Shown here: one piece after another, positions 2,895 to 16,829 of the stretch
How the letters are laid out: each line of letters starts with the position of its first letter
How positions within the stretch are numbered: position 1 is the stretch's first letter
IMG/VR virus record: IMGVR_UViG_3300019828_000708
Location: 1-20,661 of that record
Length of the DNA stretch: 20,661 nt
Strand: one strand, 5' to 3'
Source of the DNA: a virus
Notes under the pieces: generated by a model
What the model saw: the letters and a program-made list of their open reading frames with translations, nothing else
What the model was told of the DNA's origin: nothing
Database searches by the model: none
Position numbers and translations under genes: made by a program

Positions 2895-3530
2895 TTATAT
2901 ATTAATATATCCTTCGACTTTATTAACCGATTCTTTTCCTATGTCTTCTAGGAATGAATTTAGTCTATCTAAAATAATAGCTGGGTTTCCATCAACCTTT
3001 CTAAAGATGTCATAATCACTTAGAATTTCTATTTTATCCAAATCTTTAAATAATTTCCAGACTTCATAGACTGGATTATCATTACAATAAAAACCACCAC
3101 CGACTGAAGTTGGAGCACCTTCTAATGAAGTTAATTTGTTATTATGACAATAAAAATCACCACCGATCGACTTTGGAGCAAACTCTAGTGAAGTTAGTTT
3201 ATTATCACTACAATAAAAACCTCCACCAACTGAAGTTGGGGAACCTTCTAATGAAGTTAAATTATTATTATGACAATAAAAATTACCACCGACTGAAGTT
3301 GGAGCACCTTCTAATGAAGTTATTTGATTATCATAACAACTAAAATCACCACTAACTTTTCTAAACTTCAGTGGAATTTTAGTTAATTCCTTCTTATATA
3401 AATAAACATCACCATCAACATCAATTGAATGGTCTTTATTTATAGTATAATTTTCGATATTATGCTTTTTACAGATGGTATGGATTTTCTCATCAGAATT
3501 AAAGTTTTCAAATATTTTTAAGTAATTCAT
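2895..3530 (-). CDS. Leucine-rich-repeat-type protein with 21-residue repeats
   Basis: This 211-aa protein has a short N-terminal region, then about five near-identical 21-residue repeats (residues about 65-155) of the form FYCxxNxLTSLEGxPTSVGG, and a C-terminal helical tail. The pattern is a degenerate leucine-rich repeat that should stack as a solenoid. Related repeat proteins occur in phages and bacteria of the Bacteroidota, often in several copies, and their function is unknown. The first ten residues, MNYLKIFENF, match the N-terminal pattern of two other proteins in this window (14167 and 14831). A TTAATATATA motif sits 9 bases upstream of the ATG. The stop codon lies inside a second copy of the motif that serves the giant gene downstream, so the two genes are tightly arranged. 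Confidence 0.85.
   Translation of the reverse strand: MNYLKIFENFNSDEKIHTICKKHNIENYTINKDHSIDVDGDVYLYKKELTKIPLKFRKVSGDFSCYDNQITSLEGAPTSVGGNFYCHNNNLTSLEGSPTSVGGGFYCSDNKLTSLEFAPKSIGGDFYCHNNKLTSLEGAPTSVGGGFYCNDNPVYEVWKLFKDLDKIEILSDYDIFRKVDGNPAIILDRLNSFLEDIGKESVNKVEGYINI
2896..2905 (-). promoter_or_regulatory. TTAATATATA motif upstream of the giant gene
   Basis: Exact match on the reverse strand, 21 bases before the ATG at 2874. It overlaps the last codons and stop of the LRR gene. The flanking sequence is palindromic. Promoter function is inferred from recurrence of the motif before many starts. Confidence 0.5.
3080..3350 (-). repeat. 63-nt tandem repeats inside the LRR gene
   Basis: About four to five imperfect units of 63 nt, with recurring stretches such as ccttctaatgaagtta and ccaccgactgaagttgg on the + strand. 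They encode the 21-residue leucine-rich repeats. The period is a multiple of three, so copies can be gained or lost without changing frame. Confidence 0.8.
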
Positions 3531-4908: not shown

Positions 4909-6304
4909 ATGGTAGCTAATTTTTTTGATATAGACTCATTAATAAGGGTAGACAATAATGTTTGGATAGTATCCAAGGATAAACCCTCTATACCTATATT
5001 AAAAAATAACAAAAATCTGAATTTAATTTATAAAAAAGGGCATATATAGAAAATATGATAGCCAATTAAATATAAATGGGACTAAGTATTGGTTACCAGA
5101 GAACCTATTTGATGAAATCAAGATAAAGTGTAAAAACTTTAGGTGTGATATTTCCAATTTATCATTTTCTATGCAAGAGTTTACTAATGATGCGATAATA
5201 AAAAATTTAGATTATGAAATTTTATATGATAACTTTAAACATCTAAAAAATAAATCAGATCATATCTATATAATATGTTCTAAAAAAGGCAAAAGAAGTT
5301 ATAGGTCTATAATAGAGAAGTTGGAAGAGAAATTTAATGATATTGGACTAAAGGTGGAAAAATATTACTTTCTTTCTAAAACATTTTATAATAGAGGACA
5401 AGATGAAATGGCTCATAAAAAAACTAGATTAATACTACAACACTTGGTTGGTCTAAAAACTGATGATAAAATGTTTACTAATGAGGAAATAAATAAATAT
5501 GATACAATATCATATTATGATGATGATGAAAAAACATTATCGATGATGAAAGATTCAAATAATTTGTTTTCTGTATTACTCGATAACTCAGATGATATTG
5601 TAAAAGATAATATTAGAAATACAATAAAGACTAGTGATAACAAAATTATAATAAGAAGAGTTACACATAATAAAGTAAATATATTCGATGATAATGAAGT
5701 TAAAATAGAATTTAGTCACATAAAGAAAACATTCGAAAGTTTTAATTATTCTATATTGGAGGATTTTACCGAAGATGAAAACTTAGAAAGTGATATAGAA
5801 GATTGTTTTTCTTATATTAAAGATAGAGGTGGTTATGTTAAAGTTGACTCTGTTAACGGTGTAGTAGGAGTTAGAATATCTGTCGATAGCCTATTAAAAG
5901 CTAATCATGAAACAAAATTATCAAAATATAACGCAAGATATAGACCAGTAATAGAGGGTGATCAAATTGTTGAAGAAATAGTAGATGGTATATCAAAATG
6001 TGTTGGAGTTTATGGGTTAGAAATATCAACTGCTCAAATTACTTGGGTACAAGCTGGAGAATGGGTTAGAAAGATGGGATATAAACCGGCATCCACAGCA
6101 AAGCCTTCTGCATGTCTACTAACTCATCGATTATGTCATCTAGGCCGCGGAGGTCCTGGGTTCTTAGAAAAGGGATTCAAAGAAGGTGCTAAAGACGGTA
6201 ACATTGACCCAATAGAGAAAGGGGCATATTCCATTGAGTCTATAAATAAGATTCTATTGGAGAAAGGCGATAGAGTCAGAACTATTAAAATCTACTTTAA
6301 GTAA
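4909..6304 (+). CDS. Unknown 464-aa phage protein (one frame break)
   Basis: The first frame runs from ATG 4909 to a stop at 5047. Removing one A from the A6 run at 5032-5037 joins it to the long downstream frame, giving IYKKGIYRKYDSQLNINGT across the junction and a whole protein of 464 aa. The N-terminal 90 residues form a small domain (DNNVWIVSKDKPSIPILK, then TKYWLPENLF). Residues about 110-250 contain CSKKGKRSYRSIIEKLEEKF and DTISYYDDDEKTL, which weakly recall the last motif of HAD-like proteins, but no catalytic DxD is present. The C-terminal 120 residues are Gly-rich and better conserved in feel (GRGGPGFLEKGFKEGAKDGN). Function is unknown. It converges with the next gene, and the two stop codons abut at 6302-6307. 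Confidence 0.7.
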
Positions 6305-6919
6305 TTATTTCTTCTTATCATCGCTATTTAACATAGCATTTTTTATCAAATCATTCAATTTTCTATTATCCATAACATCACCTTCTGTGTTTTCTTCTTC
6401 ATCAGATCCGACTGGTTCTTGATTAATTTCTTCATATCCCAAATCATTTCTTAGATTCTTATAGAATTTTTCTAATTCTGTTCTTTGCCCGGATAAGAAT
6501 TTTGAGTTTTCTCTTATTTGACCAATTGTTTGGTTGACTACTTCGTGCATTCTTGCTGAGTTATCACCATTATCAACTTGTCTTAGTTGGTTTAAGAAGT
6601 TCTTCCTTGTCATTTTTGCTAAAAATAGAGCCTCAGCATACACCATAGCATCTTCTTTCATCTTATTTATGATATATGGGTGTTCTTTTAATTTGGGAAC
6701 ATCACCTAAATATAAGTCAACTAGTGACTCTAAAACTTCGGTTGATTTGTGTGAAGATACTGTTAAATCTGCGTCATAATCATACAATTCAATAGATCCA
6801 AGGTCTGGTAAATGTTCTGATTTAGCTAGGTGTTTTGATATATCAAAATCTTTATTTTCTGATTGAATTTGATCAAATTCGTCTTGTATCCTATCCTTTT
6901 CCTTTTGTATTTTGGACAT
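6305..6919 (-). CDS. Coiled-coil protein beside the terminase, possible small terminase subunit
   Basis: A 204-aa charged, mostly helical protein with no membrane segment. Residues 1-30 and 115-165 look like coiled coil, and residues 165-190 are acidic. It is transcribed divergently from the large terminase and its start lies 43 bases from the terminase start. In T4-like phages the small subunit (gp16), which recognises DNA and stimulates the motor, lies next to gp17. Position, size and helical make-up fit that role, but I see no diagnostic motif and the opposite orientation is unusual, so the assignment is tentative. Confidence 0.5.
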   Translation of the reverse strand: MSKIQKEKDRIQDEFDQIQSENKDFDISKHLAKSEHLPDLGSIELYDYDADLTVSSHKSTEVLESLVDLYLGDVPKLKEHPYIINKMKEDAMVYAEALFLAKMTRKNFLNQLRQVDNGDNSARMHEVVNQTIGQIRENSKFLSGQRTELEKFYKNLRNDLGYEEINQEPVGSDEEENTEGDVMDNRKLNDLIKNAMLNSDDKKK

Positions 6920-6962
6920 AGAGGTGGTTTTTTACAATATATATAAAAAGTTTTATTCTTTC

Positions 6963-7481
6963 ATGACTAATAACAAAAATAAAAATCAAATGATATTCAC
7001 CACCAAGTTGGTTGAATCTGTAACACAGGATATACATGATGCTATTCCAGTTAAGAGGTTCAGAAACCCTTGGATGAAAAGTGAAGTCGGTATAAGAAGA
7101 TCTGGTGTTGTTTTTCGAATGAGTGATGAGGAACAGGCTGAGTATGTCAAGTGTGCGTTAGATATAAATTATTTTACTGAGAAATATTGTAAAGTTAAAA
7201 CAGATGATGGGTCAATAGGTAATATAAAATTAAGGGATTACCAATCTGATATAATGAATTCATTTGTAAAGAATAGATTCAATATATTAATGGCAAGTAG
7301 GCAAGTTGGAAAATGTTTTTTTTTCAATACAATTATATCCGTTGAAACCAATAATCAGCAATATGAAACTAGAATAGGAATTCTTTATTATTCAATGGTT
7401 TCAAAGGAAAGAAATTTAACTATTTTAGAGAAAATTAAAATAAAATTATATGATTTATTATTCATTTTAGAAAAACATTAA
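6963..7481 (+). CDS. Large terminase N-terminal part plus split-intein N fragment
   Basis: The ATG at 6963 (MTNNKNKNQMIF) is preferred over the upstream ATG at 6912, which overlaps the start of the divergent gene. Residues 1-117 are the N-terminal part of a gp17-like packaging ATPase, with LRDYQSDIMNSFVKNRFNIL followed by the Walker A beginning MASRQVGK. The normal next residue, Thr, is replaced by Cys at 7314, which opens an intein: CFFFNTIISVET is block A. The intein fragment runs 55 residues and ends at a stop at 7479-7481. The missing Thr and the rest of the ATPase are on the separate gene at 8540, so the active motor should need protein trans-splicing. An AATATATATA element lies 17 bases upstream. 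Confidence 0.85.
   Translation: MTNNKNKNQMIFTTKLVESVTQDIHDAIPVKRFRNPWMKSEVGIRRSGVVFRMSDEEQAEYVKCALDINYFTEKYCKVKTDDGSIGNIKLRDYQSDIMNSFVKNRFNILMASRQVGKCFFFNTIISVETNNQQYETRIGILYYSMVSKERNLTILEKIKIKLYDLLFILEKH
7314..7478 (+). other. Split intein N fragment (IntN, 55 aa)
   Basis: It begins with the nucleophile Cys directly after the extein residues GK of Walker A and carries block A (CFFFNTIISVE). A helical segment follows, KERNLTILEKIKIKLYDLL. Block B is absent and lies on the C fragment, so the split is unusually close to the N-terminus, as in the AceL-TerL and VidaL inteins rather than canonical split inteins. A T9 run encodes the Phe residues but the frame is kept. Confidence 0.8.
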
Positions 7482-7508
7482 CCGACTTGAAAGGAAGCCA
7501 TAATTTTT

Positions 7509-7518
7509 TTAATATATA
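7509..7518 (+). promoter_or_regulatory. TTAATATATA motif upstream of the homing endonuclease
   Basis: Exact match ending 4 bases before the ATG at 7523, in the 41-base gap after the intein N fragment. It suggests the endonuclease is expressed as its own gene. Confidence 0.5.
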
Positions 7519-7522
7519 GGTT

Positions 7523-8502
7523 ATGAAAATTAAAATAAACGACAATACTGATACAGTCACATGTAGAATATGTGGAGAACAGTGTAAAAGAATATATGGT
7601 AAGCATTTAAAATTTAAACATTATAATATGACCACAAAGGAATATAAAAAAATGTTTATTGGTGCCCCAATAATGGCTTTATCTGATAAAAAGAATACTA
7701 CAAAAAATTCCGGAAAGCATATGAAACAAGAAAAATATAAAAAAATGTTTTCAGAAAAAATGAAAGGAAATAAAAATCCAAACCATAAAAGTAAAACAAC
7801 TAAATTAGAAAGGAAATCAAGAAGTCCATTTTCTAAAGATTTCATTAAATATGTTGATATTGAGAATAAAAAAGAACACATAAGTTTATTTGTAAAAGAA
7901 TCTATAAAAGATAGAGTCTCTGATACCACATTACAATACTATTTAGATAGAGGGTACTCTTTGGGTGAATCTGAGATTCTATTAAAAAATAGACAAACAA
8001 CATTTTCTATGGGTATATGTATTGAGAAATATGGAGAAAAGGAGGGCAAAAAAAAGGTGGATTGATAGACAAGAAAAATGGACTAAATAATTATAAAAAA
8101 GTTAATTATAGCCAAATAAGCCAAGAAATGTTCATAAGTATGTATAATGAATTATTAAATATAGGATTTAATGATAAAGTTTTTTTCGCAAAATTAGATA
8201 AAGATAATAATATTCATAATACCAATAAGAATTATGAATATAGATTAAGATTAAAAGATTCTTATATCTTGCCTGATTTTTATATACCATCATTAATGTT
8301 GATAATTGAATTTGATGGAACTTACTATCACAGGAATAATAAAGAAAATAAAAAAAGAGAAATTAATAGAGATAAAAATATTAAAGAATCTGGTTATTCA
8401 GTATTACATATATCAGAAAAGGAATATAATAATAATAAGGAATTATGTGTTTTAAAAACAATAAATTATATTTTAAAAATTAATAAATCAAAAAATGCTT
8501 AG
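7523..8502 (+). CDS. Free-standing Vsr-like (EDxHD) homing endonuclease between the terminase halves (two frame breaks)
   Basis: The N-terminal part has a MucR/Ros-like zinc-finger pattern, CRICGEQC...HLKFKH, followed by MTTKEYKKMF. A NUMOD3-like DNA-binding segment around GNKNPNHKSKTT comes next. The C-terminal part is Vsr/EDxHD nuclease-like: LPDFYIPSLMLIIEFDGTYY, then H, RD and GYSVLHISEKEY. Frame changes occur at the A8 run at 8048-8055 and again near 8085. Repairing both gives about 325 aa, with RWIDRQEKWT across the join. The gene lies exactly between the two split-intein genes, the arrangement described as fractured genes in phage metagenomes. Such nucleases cut alleles lacking the insertion and spread it. 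The frame breaks could be assembly errors or decay, since nuclease activity is dispensable. Confidence 0.75.
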
Positions 8503-8539
8503 AATTTTTAAAAGGTGTTTAATTTATTTAATTAAAAAA

Positions 8540-8944
8540 ATGATTGAATTTATTGAATTATATGAATATAAAAAAATCTCATTAGATGAGTGTGATATAA
8601 ATAAAAAAATATTAAACTCAATATCTCTTATGGATTTAAAGGTAGAGACTGATACAGGATATGAAACATCATCTAATATACACATAACACAACCATTTAA
8701 ACACTATAATATTGAAACGGTTGATGGTTATGAAATAATATGTGCTGATAATCATATATTATTTGATGAGGAATTCAATGAAGTATTTACAAAGGATTTA
8801 AAAATAGGAGATTTAATTAAAACAAAAAATGGCAACAGTGTTATCAAGAGTATTTATATAGACACACATAAGTCATCCATGTTTGACCTAACAATAGACC
8901 ATCCAAACCACAGGTTCTATACAAATGGTATACTTTCACATAAT
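8540..8944 (+). other. Split intein C fragment (IntC, 135 aa)
   Basis: It carries a block B-like segment, VDGYEIICADNHILF, with the conserved His but ADNH in place of TxxH. Next come LKIGDLIKT, block F (MFDLTIDHPNHRFYTNGIL) and block G ending SHN. The C-extein then starts with Thr, a valid splicing nucleophile. These are all the residues expected for a functional trans-splicing C fragment. Confidence 0.85.
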
Positions 8945-10768
8945 ACGATATCATCTTCTATATTCTTATTACACTCAATTTTATTCAGTAATGATAAGAA
9001 TATTATGATAGTAGCCAATAAGGGAGATACCGCTATTGAGATTGTTGATAAAATAAAGTCTATTTATACGTTACTTCCTTTTTTCTTAAAACCTGGTATA
9101 AAAGTCTGGAACCAAAAATCGCTAACTTTTGAAAATGGATGTAGAATAAAAACAGCAACAAGAACAAAAACACCAGCGATTGGTTTTACGATTGATATAC
9201 TCTATTTAGATGAGTTTGCTCACATACCATCAAATATTATAGTTCCTTATTATACTGCGGTTTATCCAACTGTATCAGCTATAAAAAACTCTAAAATAAT
9301 AATAACATCTACTCCAAATGGAATGAATCTATTTCATAAGTTATTAACAAATGCTGAAAGACCCGATGGTGATCCTTTGAAAAATAACTTCAAAGCTTCT
9401 AGGGTATATTGGTATCAAGTTCCTGGTAGATTTGTCACATATATAAGATTAAATGAGCACAAACTACACGAAAATGATACAACAAAAGAAGAAGTACTTG
9501 AAATAGTAAAAGATAGATTTGGTAAGGACACTAAAGTAAGTATGAGTTGGAATATAGATTTACAAAAAAATGTTATAAGTGTTTTGAATAATGATTTGTG
9601 TAGTGATGCTGATGTTAAGGGGCTTAACTTCATAAATAACAAAGGTGTCGAGGTTACTCTACATTCGGTTGGTGAATTAACAACATGGAAAGAAGAAGCC
9701 GAGAAGGATATTGGTGGAGAAGATGCTTTTAATCAAGAATATGGGCTAAGGTTTATTAATGCTAGTAAATCACTATTAAATGAATCTATAATAGAGGATC
9801 TATTAAAGAAAAAGAAACCATATGAATTTGAAAAATTAGACGAATTAGATAGGTTGAAATTTTCTTATGAGAATTTAAAATGGGTACAAGATGATGATTT
9901 ATTTATACCAATAAAAAGAAAAGATTATAAATTAGTAATATCTGTCGATTTATCCGAAGGATTAGGCCAAGATTATTCTGTTATAAACATATTTAGAGTT
10001 ATGTGTAAATCAAAAGAAACTATTGAATTACAGAAAGATTCTTATACATCTGTTGTTGATTTTTTCAAATTAGAACAGATAGCTATTTATAGAAGTAACA
10101 TAATATCAATAAAACAAATGGCTGAAATACTTTATTTAATAACCTTTGAGTATTTTAACCCAGAGAATATAAGAGTTGTTTTAGAATTAAATAACTATGG
10201 AGGTACTCTATTATCAGAAATGCCTTATGTTTTTGATGGTAAGAATGATTATGGGTCTTCTATTTTTGTTAGGTATAAGCATAGAGTTGATGCTACTGAA
10301 GAAAAGGTTGGATTAAAAGTAGGACACAACAAGAACCTATTAGTCAAAGATTACCAAGACCTTATGTTAAGCAAAAGCTTCTCTATAACTAACTTTGAAA
10401 CTGTTAATGAAATAACAACATTTGTAAAACAAACAACTTCTTCTGGTAATGTTAAATATGCCGCTGACATTGGACATGATGATTGTGTAATGACGATAGT
10501 TAATGCTACCTCTATATTTGTTAAAAATGAATTTAAAGAAATGGTGGAAGATTATATGGAAAAAGATATTTCAGTAGATATGAAAAATTATATAAATGAT
10601 TGTCTAAAAAAATCTGATTATTTTGAAGCAGTTGATTATACACAATTATTAGATGTTCGTAGAAAACATTTAAATTCAGTTAGAACAAGAAATAGTGGTT
10701 ATAAAAGCACTGGATTTGGTAATAACGAAAGTAGTAGTGGAGTTGGTGGTGATTGGTTTAAACTATAA
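8540..10768 (+). CDS. Split-intein C fragment plus large terminase ATPase/nuclease part
   Basis: The likely start is ATG 8540 (MIEFIELYEY); an in-frame ATG at 8495 overlaps the endonuclease stop. Residues 1-135 are the intein C fragment and the remaining 607 form the terminase. The C-extein begins TISSSIFLLH, completing Walker A (GK|T). Walker B is ILYLDEF and the coupling motif is IIITSTPNG. The RuvC/RNase H-type nuclease has ISVDLSEGLGQDYS, VVLELNNYGG and DIGHDDCV, matching the three acidic positions of T4 gp17. The spliced terminase would be 724 aa, somewhat longer than T4 gp17 (610). It drives DNA into the prohead and cuts concatemers. The stop nearly abuts the convergent SbtA stop. Confidence 0.9.
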   Translation: MIEFIELYEYKKISLDECDINKKILNSISLMDLKVETDTGYETSSNIHITQPFKHYNIETVDGYEIICADNHILFDEEFNEVFTKDLKIGDLIKTKNGNSVIKSIYIDTHKSSMFDLTIDHPNHRFYTNGILSHNTISSSIFLLHSILFSNDKNIMIVANKGDTAIEIVDKIKSIYTLLPFFLKPGIKVWNQKSLTFENGCRIKTATRTKTPAIGFTIDILYLDEFAHIPSNIIVPYYTAVYPTVSAIKNSKIIITSTPNGMNLFHKLLTNAERPDGDPLKNNFKASRVYWYQVPGRFVTYIRLNEHKLHENDTTKEEVLEIVKDRFGKDTKVSMSWNIDLQKNVISVLNNDLCSDADVKGLNFINNKGVEVTLHSVGELTTWKEEAEKDIGGEDAFNQEYGLRFINASKSLLNESIIEDLLKKKKPYEFEKLDELDRLKFSYENLKWVQDDDLFIPIKRKDYKLVISVDLSEGLGQDYSVINIFRVMCKSKETIELQKDSYTSVVDFFKLEQIAIYRSNIISIKQMAEILYLITFEYFNPENIRVVLELNNYGGTLLSEMPYVFDGKNDYGSSIFVRYKHRVDATEEKVGLKVGHNKNLLVKDYQDLMLSKSFSITNFETVNEITTFVKQTTSSGNVKYAADIGHDDCVMTIVNATSIFVKNEFKEMVEDYMEKDISVDMKNYINDCLKKSDYFEAVDYTQLLDVRRKHLNSVRTRNSGYKSTGFGNNESSSGVGGDWFKL

Positions 10769-10780
10769 TTTAAATTATAG
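10763..10780. repeat. 18-bp perfect palindrome across two convergent stops
   Basis: CTATAATTTAAATTATAG is its own reverse complement and contains the stop codons of the terminase (+) and the permease (-). It has no GC-rich stem or T tract, so it is at most a weak bidirectional terminator. Confidence 0.5.
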
Positions 10781-11742
10781 ATGCAATATAAAAGTAAATA
10801 GGCATTCCTATTGTTATGTTTATTGGAAATGTAATTGCTAGTGCCATTGGTAAAAATAAACCAGGATTTGCTTTAGGTACATTTATTTTCATAGCAGCCG
10901 GAACAGCAATATAAGAAGCACTAGCGGCTAAAATACCTAACATAAATCTATTTGATATATCATCTGTGAAAAATGAACTTAGAAAGGTAAATAATATTCC
11001 ATTTATTAGTGGTATAACCATAGCAAAAACAACCGGAAACCAACCATGTGAGAAAAATGATTTTAATTTCTTACCACTGCTTATCCCCATATCTAAAAGA
11101 AAAATCGCTAAAAACCCTTTAAATAAATCATTTGTAAATGGCTTTATTCCTTCGGCTTGTTGATCACTAGCTATAAAACCAATCAATAGACTTCCTAATA
11201 TTAATAAAACACTACCATTTGTAAATGAGTGCTTTAAGTATGTCCATTTTTTTAAATTTACTACCCTTTGAATACATAGCAATCAATAACAATCCCATTA
11301 TAATTGCTGGTGACTCCATAAGTGCCACAATAGCAACCATGTGTCCATGTAGAATCAATCCTTGTGATTCTAGATATGATGATGCCGTAACAAAAGTCAC
11401 GGCACTAACAGAACCATAGGCTGCGGCTATTGCTCCGGCATTGAATATGTTTAGTTTTTTCTTTAAAATGAAAAAAGTATATATTGGTATAATTAGTGAT
11501 AAGCCGACACCAAAAATAATGGATAAAAATATCTCCGGGGTGAATGTTTCGTGTGATAATTCTTGTCCACCTCTGAATCCAATAGCAAATAAAAGATATA
11601 TTGATATGAATTTAGAAGAATTTGGTGGTATCTCTAAATCACTTTTAAACACAACGGCTATTATTCCGAGTATAAAAAAAAGTAAAGCAGGGTTAGTTAG
11701 ATTATCAATTAATAGATTATCAATTAATAGATTTAAATCCAT
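10770..11742 (-). CDS. sbtA: SbtA-type sodium-dependent bicarbonate permease (one frame break)
   Basis: Two overlapping frames (11742-11212 and 11282-10770) together match the Na+-dependent bicarbonate transporter superfamily (SbtA). Removing one A from the A7 run at 11247-11253 joins them into a 323-aa protein, close to the usual family length. About ten hydrophobic segments are visible. Family-like sequences include LLFAIGFRGGQEL in the first half, AAAYGSVSAVTFVTA and MVAIVALMESPAIIMGLLL before the break, and TNGSVLLILGSLLIGF after it. Characterised cyanobacterial members import bicarbonate with sodium; many members are uncharacterised, so the substrate here is inferred. No SbtB-like regulator is adjacent. 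It is the last gene of a reverse-strand cassette. A permease on a phage is unusual. Confidence 0.75.
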
Positions 11743-11746
11743 TTAT

Positions 11747-12097
11747 TTATCTTTTATTAATTTGTGATTCTAACTCTAATATTCTTGATATTAGTTCTTC
11801 TCTTGTTAAGTTTGATAATTCATCACCTTCGGAATCCTCAGAATCAATTATTATTATTGATGATATTATTTTAAAATTACTACTACTTGATGTGGATATA
11901 ATCTCTTGTGCTCTGTTTTTAGCCTCTATTAGTTCTGGTATTTTCTCTACTGATTTTTTATCTTTATAACCAAACCTTTCCTCTGAGCTAAATATCTTCA
12001 AATCATGAAATTTAATCTTACTTGTGTATATACCCATTAGTAATTCCATAGATTCCTCTTTTGTAAAATTACCTTCTATCAATTTTAATTTATTCAT
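11747..12097 (-). CDS. Conserved Bacteroidota hypothetical protein
   Basis: A 116-aa soluble protein beginning MNKLKLIEGNFTKEESMELL, with the segment KINFH-like KIKFHDLKIFSSEERFGYKD in the middle, an Ile-rich strand, and a charged helical C-terminus (ELSNLTREELISRILELE). Its sequence strongly resembles a small conserved hypothetical found in Flavobacteria, where function is unknown. The stop is 4 bases before the start of the permease gene, so the two are probably translated from one message. It supports a Bacteroidota origin for this cassette. Confidence 0.75.
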   Translation of the reverse strand: MNKLKLIEGNFTKEESMELLMGIYTSKIKFHDLKIFSSEERFGYKDKKSVEKIPELIEAKNRAQEIISTSSSSNFKIISSIIIIDSEDSEGDELSNLTREELISRILELESQINKR

Positions 12098-12099
12098 AT

Positions 12100-12180
12100 T
12101 TATTTATTTATTTGTTCTATTCTAGTAAAGTTAGAAGAATAAAAATCTATAGATTCTTGTATATATCTGTAATTTATCAC
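12100..12180 (-). CDS. Possible 26-aa peptide between ClpS and the next gene
   Basis: A GTG at 12180 overlaps the ClpS stop codon region and opens a short frame reading INYRYIQESIDFYSSNFTRI and ending 3 bases before the 12097 start. It fills the gap almost exactly, and the composition is protein-like. There is no other support, and it could be chance or the remnant of a longer protein. Confidence 0.3.
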   Translation of the reverse strand: MINYRYIQESIDFYSSNFTRIEQINK

Positions 12181-12455
12181 TAATTAACCTCCATAGTTAC
12201 TGATAAACCAAGAGATTCTAATTTTTCTTTCATTGTTGATATTTTTTCAAAATCACCATATTTCACATCACATAAACCACTCAAATGTACTATATGAGCA
12301 CATTGATTAGCTTGTTCTGATTCGTGATTACACACTTTAATTAGACAATCTATTACCCAATCAAATGAATTAAAATCATCATTGTGTAGAATTAGCTTAT
12401 ATGGTTTTGATAAAATTTCATCAACTTTACTTATTGTTTGTTCTTTAACTGACAT
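12180..12455 (-). CDS. clpS: ClpS adaptor of the ClpAP/ClpCP protease
   Basis: The 91-aa protein has the ClpS core: PYKLILHNDDFNSFDWVIDC, then CNHESEQANQCAHIVHLSG and a C-terminal beta-alpha unit. The LHNDD-NSFDWVI segment is typical of ClpS from Bacteroidota, and the HND and downstream His form part of the N-degron binding pocket in characterised members. ClpS delivers N-end-rule substrates to the Clp unfoldase and blocks other substrates. The short N-terminal extension of about 17 residues needed for delivery is present. A phage copy could redirect host proteolysis during infection, which is inference. A TTAAAAATATATAA element lies just upstream of the start. Confidence 0.85.
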   Translation of the reverse strand: MSVKEQTISKVDEILSKPYKLILHNDDFNSFDWVIDCLIKVCNHESEQANQCAHIVHLSGLCDVKYGDFEKISTMKEKLESLGLSVTMEVN

Positions 12456-12470
12456 TTATATTATATATTT

Positions 12471-13042
12471 TTAACTATTAAAAGTTCTTTCTTTTTTGTT
12501 TATAACATCAACCACGGTTATTTTAATAGACTGATCTTTGGCCCACTCTTTAAACTTTATCAAATGCTCGTGTCTATCATCATATATTACTAGGTGTTCG
12601 CATTTTGTTAATTTCATTAACTGCTCAAATAATCTAATCTTGAATGTGAATGTGTCTCCGCCCCAATTAAGATATACCCCACCTTCTCCATTTTCTGGAT
12701 ATTTTCGGTTTTTGGTATTTTCATAACTTCATCAAACTCTAAGTTGTTATTTCTTAGAATTGTGTATATGTTTTTTCTCATATCCGGTACTTTATTCAAT
12801 CTACCGGTTGCCATTATCTTAATACCATCTTTATCAGCGGATGCCTCTAGGTATTTTCTATACACCCATTCGTTTTTTACTACATAGAATATATCTGGGT
12901 CTAAGCTAGTTGCTCTACCCCACCAACCTAAGTGTGGCCAATCTTCTCCTGTTTTTTCCTTCCAAGTTTCCTTACCTATTTCTGGTCTAGGTGAGTGACA
13001 TAATGTGTCGTCAAAATCAAAGGAATATAATGTAGTGCTCAT
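12471..13042 (-). CDS. HAD-like Swiss-Army-Knife RNA-repair-like protein (one frame break)
   Basis: Residues 1-110 contain the HAD nucleophile motif SFDFDDTLCHSP (Asp9/Asp11), a WWGR segment and IMATGRLNKVPDMRKNI. The first frame stops at 12617. Adding one A to the A4 run at 12718-12721 restores the frame, yielding KYPENGEGGVYLNWGGDTF, then LVIYDDRHEHLIKFKEW, the acidic loop expected near the end of the HAD domain. The corrected protein is 190 aa. The best fit is the HAD_SAK family, small HAD-like proteins linked by context to RNA repair; the actual substrate is unknown. It is the first gene of the reverse-strand cassette and is divergent from the gene at 13122. Confidence 0.65.
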
Positions 13043-14166: not shown

Positions 14167-14763
14167 ATGAAGCATATTAGAACATTCGAAAAATATCGTC
14201 TTAAAAATAGGAGATATGAAATAATAAAAGAATCGGTTATTCAAGTAAATGATGTATATAAAGTTAAAACAATGATTGATATACCTCAATCTTTAATAAA
14301 CGCATATGTTAAAAAAGTAAAAGATACTACTGGTAAAAACCTAAGACAATTTTTTGGTGATGTAGATATCGCGGAAGAAGTTGTTAAATATATTAACACC
14401 GCTAACTTAGATGTTGATAATATACCAGGTAATGCTATAATGGGTGGTGAATTACAACCTGATGAAGCACAAATGATTGACACACAGGTTCAACCACAAG
14501 CACAGGTTCAACAACAGGCTCAACCACAAGCACAGGTTCAACAACAAGCTCAACCACAAGCTCAACCACAAGCTCAACCACAAGTTCAAGTTCAGGCTCA
14601 ACCACAAACACAAGTAGATATGGAATTTGAAGATCCACAAGCGCAAGCACAAGATATGGGTGAGGTACAATTCGAAGATCCACAAGCACAAGGCGAAGAG
14701 GATGAAGAGGATGAAGAAAATATAGATGATATAGATTTTGATGATGAGTCATTGCCATTATAA
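14167..14763 (+). CDS. Phage protein with PQAQ repeats and acidic tail
   Basis: The 198-aa protein starts MKHIRTFEKY, aligning with the N-termini at 3530 and 14831. Residues 10-100 form a plausible folded, helical domain. Residues about 108-155 are tandem Gln/Pro/Ala repeats (PQAQ, VQQQAQ). Residues 156-198 repeat MEFEDPQAQ/VQFEDPQAQ and end in a highly acidic tail. Such low-complexity, acidic proteins can be scaffold or internal head proteins in large phages, but there is no family match here. It is followed directly by a strong terminator, so it ends its transcription unit. Confidence 0.7.
   Translation: MKHIRTFEKYRLKNRRYEIIKESVIQVNDVYKVKTMIDIPQSLINAYVKKVKDTTGKNLRQFFGDVDIAEEVVKYINTANLDVDNIPGNAIMGGELQPDEAQMIDTQVQPQAQVQQQAQPQAQVQQQAQPQAQPQAQPQVQVQAQPQTQVDMEFEDPQAQAQDMGEVQFEDPQAQGEEDEEDEENIDDIDFDDESLPL
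14485..14620 (+). repeat. PQ-encoding tandem repeats
   Basis: Short in-frame units such as CAACCACAAGCACAGGTT and CAACCACAAGCT repeat across about 130 bases and encode Gln-Pro-Gln-Ala/Val repeats. Units are multiples of three or six bases and are prone to copy-number change. Confidence 0.75.
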
Positions 14764-15448: not shown

Positions 15449-15826
15449 TTAAGAAACACTAGCATAAACTTCATAGTCTCTTATCTTAAACCCAATTACC
15501 ATATATTCTTGATATCTTACTGGGTCTTCAAAAAATTCAACCTTTAGATCATAATCTATTCCATCAACCTCCGGTATATAATCAGCTATTTGTGCTTTTA
15601 TATCACCCTCTATAACTTCTGCTGATAATCTAGTTTGATTTAAAAGGTCTGGTAGACTAGCTCCAAAATTAGGATCTCCCAATAACTCACCTTTATTTGT
15701 GAATAGAACCATCTCGTACTTTTGTACAATAACCCTTATTATATCATCTTCGATTAATTCTGGATCTTGAAACCTTGGGTGTCCTGGGTATCCTATATAA
15801 AAGTCTGTGAAATTAAATGATGCCAT
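15449..15826 (-). CDS. gp25-like baseplate wedge protein
   Basis: The 125-aa protein matches the GPW/gp25 family in length (T4 gp25 is 132 aa) and pattern: a mainly polar N-terminus, then IEDDIIRVIVQKYEMVLFTN, GELLGDPNFGASLPDLL, a helix (LSAEVIEGDIKAQIADYIP) and a closing beta region. The family forms the inner baseplate wedge and helps start sheath assembly in contractile tails, so this supports a myovirus-type virion. A TTAATATATA motif is 5 bases upstream of the ATG. The clamp-loader gene lies upstream on the same strand. Confidence 0.85.
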   Translation of the reverse strand: MASFNFTDFYIGYPGHPRFQDPELIEDDIIRVIVQKYEMVLFTNKGELLGDPNFGASLPDLLNQTRLSAEVIEGDIKAQIADYIPEVDGIDYDLKVEFFEDPVRYQEYMVIGFKIRDYEVYASVS

Positions 15827-15860: not shown

Positions 15861-16829
15861 TTATAGTAATTCTTCTTTTAATTTACCTATTATAGTTAAT
15901 CCCAATACTATTGGGTCTGTGTTTGTTTCTAATTTTTGGGTATAATCTGATATTATATAATTACACTTAAATAATTTATCTATATTTTTATCATTATTTA
16001 TTGACCAATCTATGAATGGTCGACCTAGCATTGATATCATTACATCTATTTTTTCATGTCCAAAATTTGACATCAAAAAGTTATAAGTTCCCTCATAGTC
16101 AATTGATTTATCATATATCATATCATATAACTTAAATCTCAAATTACCAGATATATTATTTGAAGTTGTTGATGATCCTATTTTTTTATAACTTTCAAGC
16201 TCCACGATAGTTTCTCTAAAATCAGGAAACTTTTTGTTACAATAGAAGCCAATTCTTCTTTTGTGATATCTATTTCCTCCACCGGAGCAATCACATCTCT
16301 TATCCTCTTAAACATCTCTTGTTTAAGGTATTTTCTCTTCTGGAGAACTTATATCAAAATTTAATTGTGGTATTCTGGATTTTAAACCACCCTCTATTTT
16401 ATTTATGTGGTTTGTTGTTATTAAAAACCTAACACCAACCTTACTATACTTCTCTACGAATGCCTTAAACGCATCTTGAAATTCCGGAGAAGCCCTATCG
16501 AATTCATCTAAAAGAACATATTTTATATCAGAATCGGACTCCATCATTGGTTTAAATTTACAGAAATTTTCTATTTCCGTTCTTAATACATTTATTGATG
16601 TATATAGTGATATATTTATCTCTAAAAATGGTTTATCTTTTGTGTATTTTCCTACCAATATTCTAGATAGTGAGGTTTTTCCTGTACCATAACTACCATA
16701 AAATATATAATTGCCCTCTAATCTATTTTTGAAATGATCTCTTATTCTAGGTGGTAATATTATATCTTCTATCGTCTTGGGTCTCCACTTTTCCCATAAT
16801 AATAATTTATTTATACTCATAGTAATCAT
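15861..16829 (-). CDS. gp44-like sliding-clamp loader ATPase (two frame breaks)
   Basis: The N-terminal part is an AAA+ clamp-loader subunit: WEKWRPKTIEDIILPP, Walker A FYGSYGTGKTS (Lys51), Walker B VLLDEFD (residues 105-111), sensor-1 ITTNH and an SRC-like LKSRIP. The first frame stops at 16323. Small length changes in the A4 run at 16331-16334 and the A5 run at 16231-16235 restore the rest (LKQEMFKRIRDVIAPVEEID, then KFPDFRETIVELESYKKIG), giving about 322 aa, close to T4 gp44 (319 aa). The C-terminal part is the helical collar. It would load the phage sliding clamp at primed DNA. An essential replication gene broken twice points to sequence error. MSINK, three codons in, is an alternative start. 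Confidence 0.8.

Follow-up and report, generated by a model that had tools for sequence, protein, structure and literature searches.

An SbtA-type permease gene and a small partner gene in the terminase region of a T4-type phage of Bacteroidota

Introduction

Why does a phage genome contain a gene for a permease of the Na+/bicarbonate type, where did it come from and is it likely to work? Phage genes that serve phosphate, nitrogen or photosynthetic metabolism are well known. With a carbon importer, inorganic carbon would join this list, in heterotrophic Bacteroidota rather than in cyanobacteria. The gene lies in a stretch of 20,661 nucleotides (IMG/VR record IMGVR_UViG_3300019828_000708, positions 1 to 20,661), here called the window. 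As best explanation we propose, with a probability of about 0.65, that a huge T4-type phage of Bacteroidota captured a host module of sbtA and a small gene, orf116, and that the permease imports HCO3- during infection. The proposal is built on the protein family, the predicted fold, the phage context, the host origin, a host-like neighbourhood and the linkage of orf116 to carbon transporters, all observed here.

Results

The permease is encoded on the minus strand in two overlapping open reading frames (ORFs).

10770 to 11742, minus strand: sbtA-type Na+/bicarbonate permease gene, 323 amino acids when read through one base, PF05982 in both halves
11212 to 11742, minus strand: ORF with the N-terminal half, the first inverted repeat
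10770 to 11282, minus strand: ORF with the C-terminal half, the second inverted repeat

The gene starts with ATG at 11742 and its stop codon ends at 10770, one base away from the end of terL (10768). The N-terminal half matched PF05982 (Sbt_1), the Na+-dependent bicarbonate transporter superfamily of Pfam, with an E-value of 1.6e-52 (179 bits, positions 1-149 of 308 in the profile), the C-terminal half with 2.3e-56 (191.8 bits, positions 152-307 of 308). As both halves score far above the cut-off of 27 bits, the gene is not a chance reading. Nearly the full profile is covered above the curated cut-off and, by sequence, the product is a member of this family. At E 0.001 the sole PDB sequence relative of either half was Slr1512, the cyanobacterial SbtA (7cye; E 1.4e-11 for the C-terminal and 6.7e-10 for the N-terminal half). 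The read-through protein was modelled from a 16-row alignment with a mean pLDDT of 75.7 (43-65 in the other four models). In a fold search with this model the top five PDB matches were all SbtA (E 1e-9 to 6e-9, TM 0.64-0.72, rmsd 6-7), followed by bile-acid symporters at E-values above 0.001. Going by the overall fold match of the predicted model, the protein probably has the SbtA fold with ten helices in two inverted repeats.

Two other identities were rejected. Asp-Al_Ex (PF06826), an unrelated permease family, also matched the C-terminal half, with 28.6 bits (cut-off 27) versus 191.8 for Sbt_1, and the scores of bile-acid symporters in the fold search were far below those of SbtA. A preliminary description, made from the sequence alone, had placed an SbtA-type permease at 10770-11742. 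Position and family were right, since Pfam, PDB sequence and fold all put SbtA first, and the profile comparison which it proposed turned up no unrelated family with a better fit; that the gene is in two frames had been missed. A search of Rfam gave no match. Promoter-like sites were rarer than in shuffled sequences, and the same site scan found no terminator-like site.

The genes around sbtA are those of a phage.

6912 to 10768, plus strand: terL region (T4-type terminase large subunit; PF03237, phrog_2), two genes with an apparent split intein and an endonuclease gene in between
7314 to 8944, plus strand: apparent split intein at the Walker A motif of terL (GK/T), with the endonuclease gene (7523-8502) between the halves
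12180 to 12455, minus strand: clpS adaptor gene (PF02617, E 5.2e-18), homologue in 78 of 80 related loci
12617 to 13042, minus strand: ORF of a HAD-like phosphatase, homologues in 74 of 80 related loci
15449 to 15826, minus strand: gp25-like baseplate wedge gene (phrog_261, E 3.2e-6)
15861 to 16829, minus strand: clamp loader gene (phrog_168), with a +1 and a -1 shift in the record

The name HAD-like is a reading of the N-terminus of an ORF without Pfam match. A scan with TerL yielded 178 related viral contigs, of which the best 80 (68-73% identity, many of the loci short) were compared. Besides clpS (78) and the HAD-like ORF (74), homologues were present of o6308 (71), gp25 (30) and the clamp loader (28). 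Neither the sbtA halves nor orf116 had a match at E 1e-4 in any of these best 80 loci. Of the 78 relatives in which terL and clpS both occur, 68 have the two genes within about 55 nt of each other. In the window this gap is occupied by sbtA and orf116 (116 amino acids), terL being 1 nt and clpS 82 nt away. The gap is a cargo slot in relatives, too: 10 of the 78 hold other small ORFs there (L087, L088, L089, L091, L098, L109, L113, L145, L150 and L165). Thus, the contig is from a phage and not host DNA at this point, as the preliminary description had assumed; on both sides sbtA has phage genes, arranged as in related phages. With its host origin and its place in a true phage genome, sbtA is a putative auxiliary metabolic gene.

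The closest INPHARED records were LR745206 (634,780 bp) and LR756502 (642,428 bp), which probably belong to the genome set of Al-Shayeb et al. (2020). In that paper, genomes over 634 kb are assigned to a 'Mahaphage' clade with predicted Bacteroidetes hosts (PMC7162821), a host prediction repeated in a 2025 paper (PMC12607003). Sbt_1 was absent from all 82 related phage records searched whole, LR745206 and LR756502 included (many of the 82 are fragments). Therefore, sbtA is a cargo seen only here within this phage group, and it may be a passing acquisition. The earlier suggestion that the gene sits beside clpS holds insofar as clpS is near; orf116 lies in between and, as the search of related phages showed (0/82), sbtA is not a regular partner of clpS.

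Several other features of the locus were recorded. Between clpS and orf116 a minus-strand frame of 26 codons with a GTG start (12100-12180), read by eye, resembles an N-terminal leader of these phages and may be the remnant of an earlier cargo gene. Such leaders, of the type MKHIRTFE, MKYLKKFNE or MNYLKIFENF, begin 73 of 1320 ORFs in the window plus 82 related phage loci, many of them orthologues (e.g. window 2895-3530, minus strand, and 14167-14763, plus strand; L089 at 4624; L091 at 10252). Leaders of this kind were found in none of 420 ORFs in 80 host loci and in none of 164 ORFs in the eight other viral contigs described below (L206-L213). They are reminiscent of the capsid-targeting leader of internal proteins of phage T4.

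The insertion at GK/T in terL has the appearance of a split intein whose halves are separated by an endonuclease gene; boundaries were counted by hand from translations. The endonuclease, frame-broken in this record, matched DUF559, MTES_1575 and PvuRts1I-like proteins. The C junction was found in 11 loci, ten relatives besides the window, and in every one of them the N and C parts of terL are separate ORFs; the split arrangement is therefore natural. An uninterrupted Walker A motif is present in 66 ORFs. With separate ORFs in 11 of 11 loci, we rejected the idea that errors had broken one intein into three ORFs, and only the break inside the endonuclease counts as an error. The arrangement resembles 'fractured gene' split inteins, in which the endonuclease stands free.

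The sbtA gene has relatives in host genomes. Host genomes were scanned with two short patterns and 80 of 121 relatives were kept, so the scan favours close kin. By title, the kept ones are mostly Bacteroidota, with two Pyrinomonadaceae and a few Ignavibacteria- or Kapaibacteria-like entries. In this set (80 of 121) the C-terminal half was up to 82% identical to host SbtA, and across the full length identity was 77-80% to the five nearest Bacteroidota homologues of 15 aligned. A tree of 95 proteins was built by a quick method (L211 was left out; L212, with the same ORFs listed, was included). SbtA of the window was located inside a clade of 22 rows of which the other 21 are all Bacteroidota hosts (SH-aLRT 100); the other viral rows fall elsewhere in the tree. 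This phylogeny with host homologues, together with the huge-phage relatives, supports the early assignment to a Bacteroidota phage. Over the starred branches of the tree at least three changes between host and viral labels are forced; three changes could equally be one gain and two losses. The joins of L004, L005, L006, L193, L210, L212 and L213 are unsure because long branches meet there. GC3 of sbtA (0.17-0.23) is like that of phage genes and also like that of some hosts (0.197 in L007 and L008); composition therefore does not date the capture.

The small gene next to sbtA was analysed in the same manner.

11747 to 12097, minus strand: orf116, 116 amino acids, 4 nt upstream of sbtA, without Pfam, PHROGs or NCBIfam family

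Of 84 sbtA loci from hosts or plasmids, 16 have a homologue, always upstream and on the same strand (28.8-46.5% identity); in L021 the homologue directly abuts sbtA as in the window. One close-relative scan of IMG/VR and a search of INPHARED gave no relative of orf116. Of 61 evenly sampled Bacteroidota genomes, 17 have Sbt_1 and 6 the orf116 family, and only 4 of the 17 sbtA genomes have orf116. It is near sbtA in G084, G127 and G134 (0.56 kb off). In G138 it adjoins genes for DabA, a DabB-type subunit and LysR, with sbtA elsewhere in the genome, in G130 SulP and isocitrate dehydrogenase and in G097 isocitrate dehydrogenase; LysR-like ORFs at the latter two were read by eye. Among 395 Bacteroidota genomes, 29 carry the family (E 1e-8). 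Within 3.3 kb of 30 loci (of 33 matches), SbtA was found ten times, DabB seven times and SulP once; five other loci have DUF6671 without SbtA, DabB or SulP (with or without LysR or isocitrate dehydrogenase), and seven have only isocitrate dehydrogenase. Pfam confirmed DabA, the DabB-type antiporter subunit and SulP in L176 and L175. The first orf116 profile was seeded from sbtA neighbours only, yet it found the DabAB and SulP loci; a second one included those. The link of orf116 to carbon transport is thus strong, though not universal.

The predicted model of orf116 has a strand-helix-helix-strand arrangement with a C-terminal helix (pLDDT 81), and its best PDB match had an E-value of 1.6. An SbtB or PII-like regulator was therefore rejected, as the predicted fold is not the ferredoxin-like one of PII; among ten window ORFs scanned none had a PII-like Pfam match. 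The phage protein has about 25 extra C-terminal residues compared to its homologues. Judged by its neighbourhoods, orf116 may be an accessory protein or a regulator of inorganic-carbon uptake. In hosts, homologues are found not only upstream of sbtA but also at DabAB and SulP genes; sbtA and orf116 were therefore apparently captured together as a two-gene inorganic-carbon module. Bacteroidota inorganic-carbon loci (DabAB, SulP, SbtA) share LysR, orf116, DUF6671 and isocitrate dehydrogenase in varying sets (e.g. L176 1588-5754, L175 4082-7776, L041 875-2986). DUF6671 may be a further accessory; the literature searched, which covered few subscription journals, did not mention it.

Does the protein carry bicarbonate? 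Slr1512 is a symporter that forms trimers and for which an elevator cycle has been proposed. It contacts Na+ by main-chain oxygens of F110, G111, A112, A320 and S322, and docking with mutants implicated S114, Y140, S324 and S327 as HCO3- residues (PMC8352866). By our own mapping on the alignments of the PDB search, the window has Y, G, S, A and S at the Na+ positions and S, V, S and A at the HCO3- positions, i.e. two of the four HCO3- residues are kept. All 11 aligned homologues share the motif ASASYIAVPAAM, and they also have A at the position of S327. Fold and Na+ site fit Slr1512, the anion site only by half, which lowers the claim of identical substrate binding, not that of family membership. 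In the literature searched, no transport assay of a Bacteroidota member of the SbtA family was found.

Possibly the permease is a working symporter of the SbtA family for another small anion, or it serves mainly Na+ entry or membrane energetics. The two exchanged HCO3- residues would fit, and the bile-acid symporters in the fold search demonstrate that the scaffold carries other solutes. However, the orf116 family adjoins three unrelated types of inorganic-carbon transporters, SbtA, DabAB and SulP, and we consider another substrate or role unlikely. The SulP locus is the weaker evidence because SulP proteins can carry other anions. Because of the linkage of orf116 to inorganic-carbon loci, bicarbonate is our best guess for the substrate of the phage SbtA.

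The record holds no single sbtA frame. The two ORFs, 11742-11212 and 11282-10770, can be joined only via a +1 shift.

11247 to 11259, minus strand: frame-break site, an A7 run (11247-11253) and adjacent bases, with one apparent extra base

A frameshift-aware alignment with three host SbtA proteins placed the extra base at 11253-11259, at or next to the A7 run. In the record the frame is interrupted by a single base, more likely through an error. No stops interrupt SbtA in any of the eight other viral records or the 17 Bacteroidota matches (one of them partial). The same kind of alignment was applied to 16 conserved genes or parts of genes across the window and showed single-base breaks in 8. 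Broken were sbtA, the clamp loader (one plus, one minus), the endonuclease (two), the terL N part at its end (judged from nine residues), o4442, o5171 (three, each ahead of the listed start), the HAD-like ORF and o19317; the terL C part, o4137, o6308, clpS, o13567, o14167, o14831 and gp25 were unbroken. Break positions in conserved genes other than sbtA were 4793, 5005-5032, 7473, 8057, 8082, 12690, 16236, 16331 and 20179. A matched control covered 11 of the 16 window tests: 4 of 11 genes were broken in the window versus 1 in 66 tests in six related contigs. The clamp-loader pieces form one ORF in 28 relatives and the endonuclease pieces one ORF in four. From this control and the intact ORFs in relatives we conclude that indels are frequent in this IMG/VR record and that caution is needed with its gene calls. 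The sbtA break is therefore most likely one of these indels, and a sequencing error is its likeliest cause.

A real break would make sbtA a decaying relic of a captured host gene from which no permease is made. This would agree with the two ORFs in the record and with the absence of the gene from the 82 related records. Yet single-base breaks occur in half of the tested genes and parts, compared to 1 in 66 tests in relatives, and the clamp loader, a single ORF in 28 relatives, is broken as well. Further, the SbtA reading is complete save one base. Compared with host L008, sbtA differs at 56 first, 16 second and 152 third codon positions over 302 codons, a bias which indicates constraint, but mostly along the history shared with hosts. 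A relic is accordingly improbable. Programmed frameshifting or two half-proteins were rejected as main reading, too. The first ATG of the C-half frame, at 11090, is inside the second half and the longer ORF opens with TTG; relatives are single-frame, and a +1 shift at an A7 run resembles the other breaks of the record. Finally, a chimeric assembly or host contamination at the site, to which a pair seen once among relatives in an error-rich record might point, is very improbable and in effect ruled out by the phage genes in conserved order at 1 nt (terL) and 82 nt (clpS), by other cargo in the same slot in 10 of 78 relatives and by a GC3 like that of phage genes, though also like that of some hosts.

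Are there other viral sbtA genes? In a wider scan, Sbt_1 turned up on eight further IMG/VR contigs (L206-L213), and a second pattern set recovered the same eight only. They include contigs of 518,643, 141,983, 121,144, 118,481 and 106,249 bases; four are from one metagenome (3300017917), and L211 and L212 are near twins. Terminase_6N was present on three of the eight. Neighbours of sbtA are a T4-type terminase and tail tubes (L213), a virion protein and dCMP deaminase (L210), dUTPase (L211), QueD and QueE (L206) and a phrog_7180 membrane protein which we read as TerC-like (L207). Searches of INPHARED gave no match at E 1e-5 for SbtA of L206, L211 and L213 and no relative with the C-terminal half of the window or L010 SbtA as queries. 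Close-relative scans of IMG/VR with the raw sbtA halves, the A6 scan and a motif-pattern search yielded no relative either; the viral genes found later differ at the motif. Because eight other viral contigs carry Sbt_1 with different neighbours, sbtA probably entered large phages more than once. In the literature searched, with few subscription journals covered, no report of a phage SbtA was found.

Discussion

How might such a module serve a phage? Carbamoyl phosphate synthesis, as is known, uses bicarbonate. We infer that the real gene is intact and expressed, that bicarbonate is its substrate and that the phage benefits. A huge T4-type phage, kin of the genomes of 634-642 kb, would have taken sbtA and orf116 from a Bacteroidota host, and the module would have been inserted between terL and clpS. 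During infection SbtA would be a ten-helix, Na+-coupled symporter in the inner membrane which imports HCO3- together with Na+ through an elevator cycle such as that proposed for Slr1512; orf116 may tune SbtA or the expression of sbtA. Imported HCO3- could feed carbamoyl phosphate for pyrimidines, purine carboxylation, acetyl-CoA carboxylase and anaplerotic oxaloacetate. That heterotrophs need bicarbonate for pyruvate carboxylase, acetyl-CoA carboxylase and phosphoribosylaminoimidazole carboxylase is stated in a published study (PMC6689103).

The data suggest that certain phages increase the amount of carbon available to the infected cell. As a testable idea, huge phages might need bicarbonate for the nucleotides and lipids of a very large genome and virion. 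Tentatively, and at somewhat less than even odds, we generalize that large phages repeatedly recruit SbtA importers for carbon supply, here together with a phage copy of orf116, whose family would serve SbtA, DAB and SulP loci of Bacteroidota alike, possibly as a shared regulator or assembly factor. The locus also points to this small, unnamed family and its ties to three types of inorganic-carbon transporters.

How does the phage locus compare with known systems? SbtA Slr1512 of Synechocystis PCC 6803 (PDB 7cye, 7cyf, 7egk, 7egl and 8zor) shares the same Pfam family over its full length and accounts for the best five fold matches; A320 and S322 of the Na+ site and S114 and S324 of the HCO3- site are retained. 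In contrast, identity in the fold match is 22-24%, Y140 and S327 are replaced and the long loop between the halves is missing. The chromosomal Bacteroidota permeases of Ferruginibacter (L008), Lacihabitans (L010) and Flavobacterium (L011) are much closer with 77-80% identity over the whole protein, and part of the host loci have the same small upstream gene family. Unlike these, the phage gene is between terL and clpS, and DUF6671, isocitrate dehydrogenase and LysR are not adjacent. LR745206 and LR756502 resemble the window in TerL (71.6% and 66.4% identity, respectively) and ClpS (75.3% and 68.5%), yet lack Sbt_1. The eight other viral contigs share Sbt_1 over at least 305 of 308 positions; their identity is 34.8-45.9% (seven measured), their neighbours are different and they lie at two further places in the tree. 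By origin and context, the phage sbtA would count as a further auxiliary metabolic gene, a class already known.
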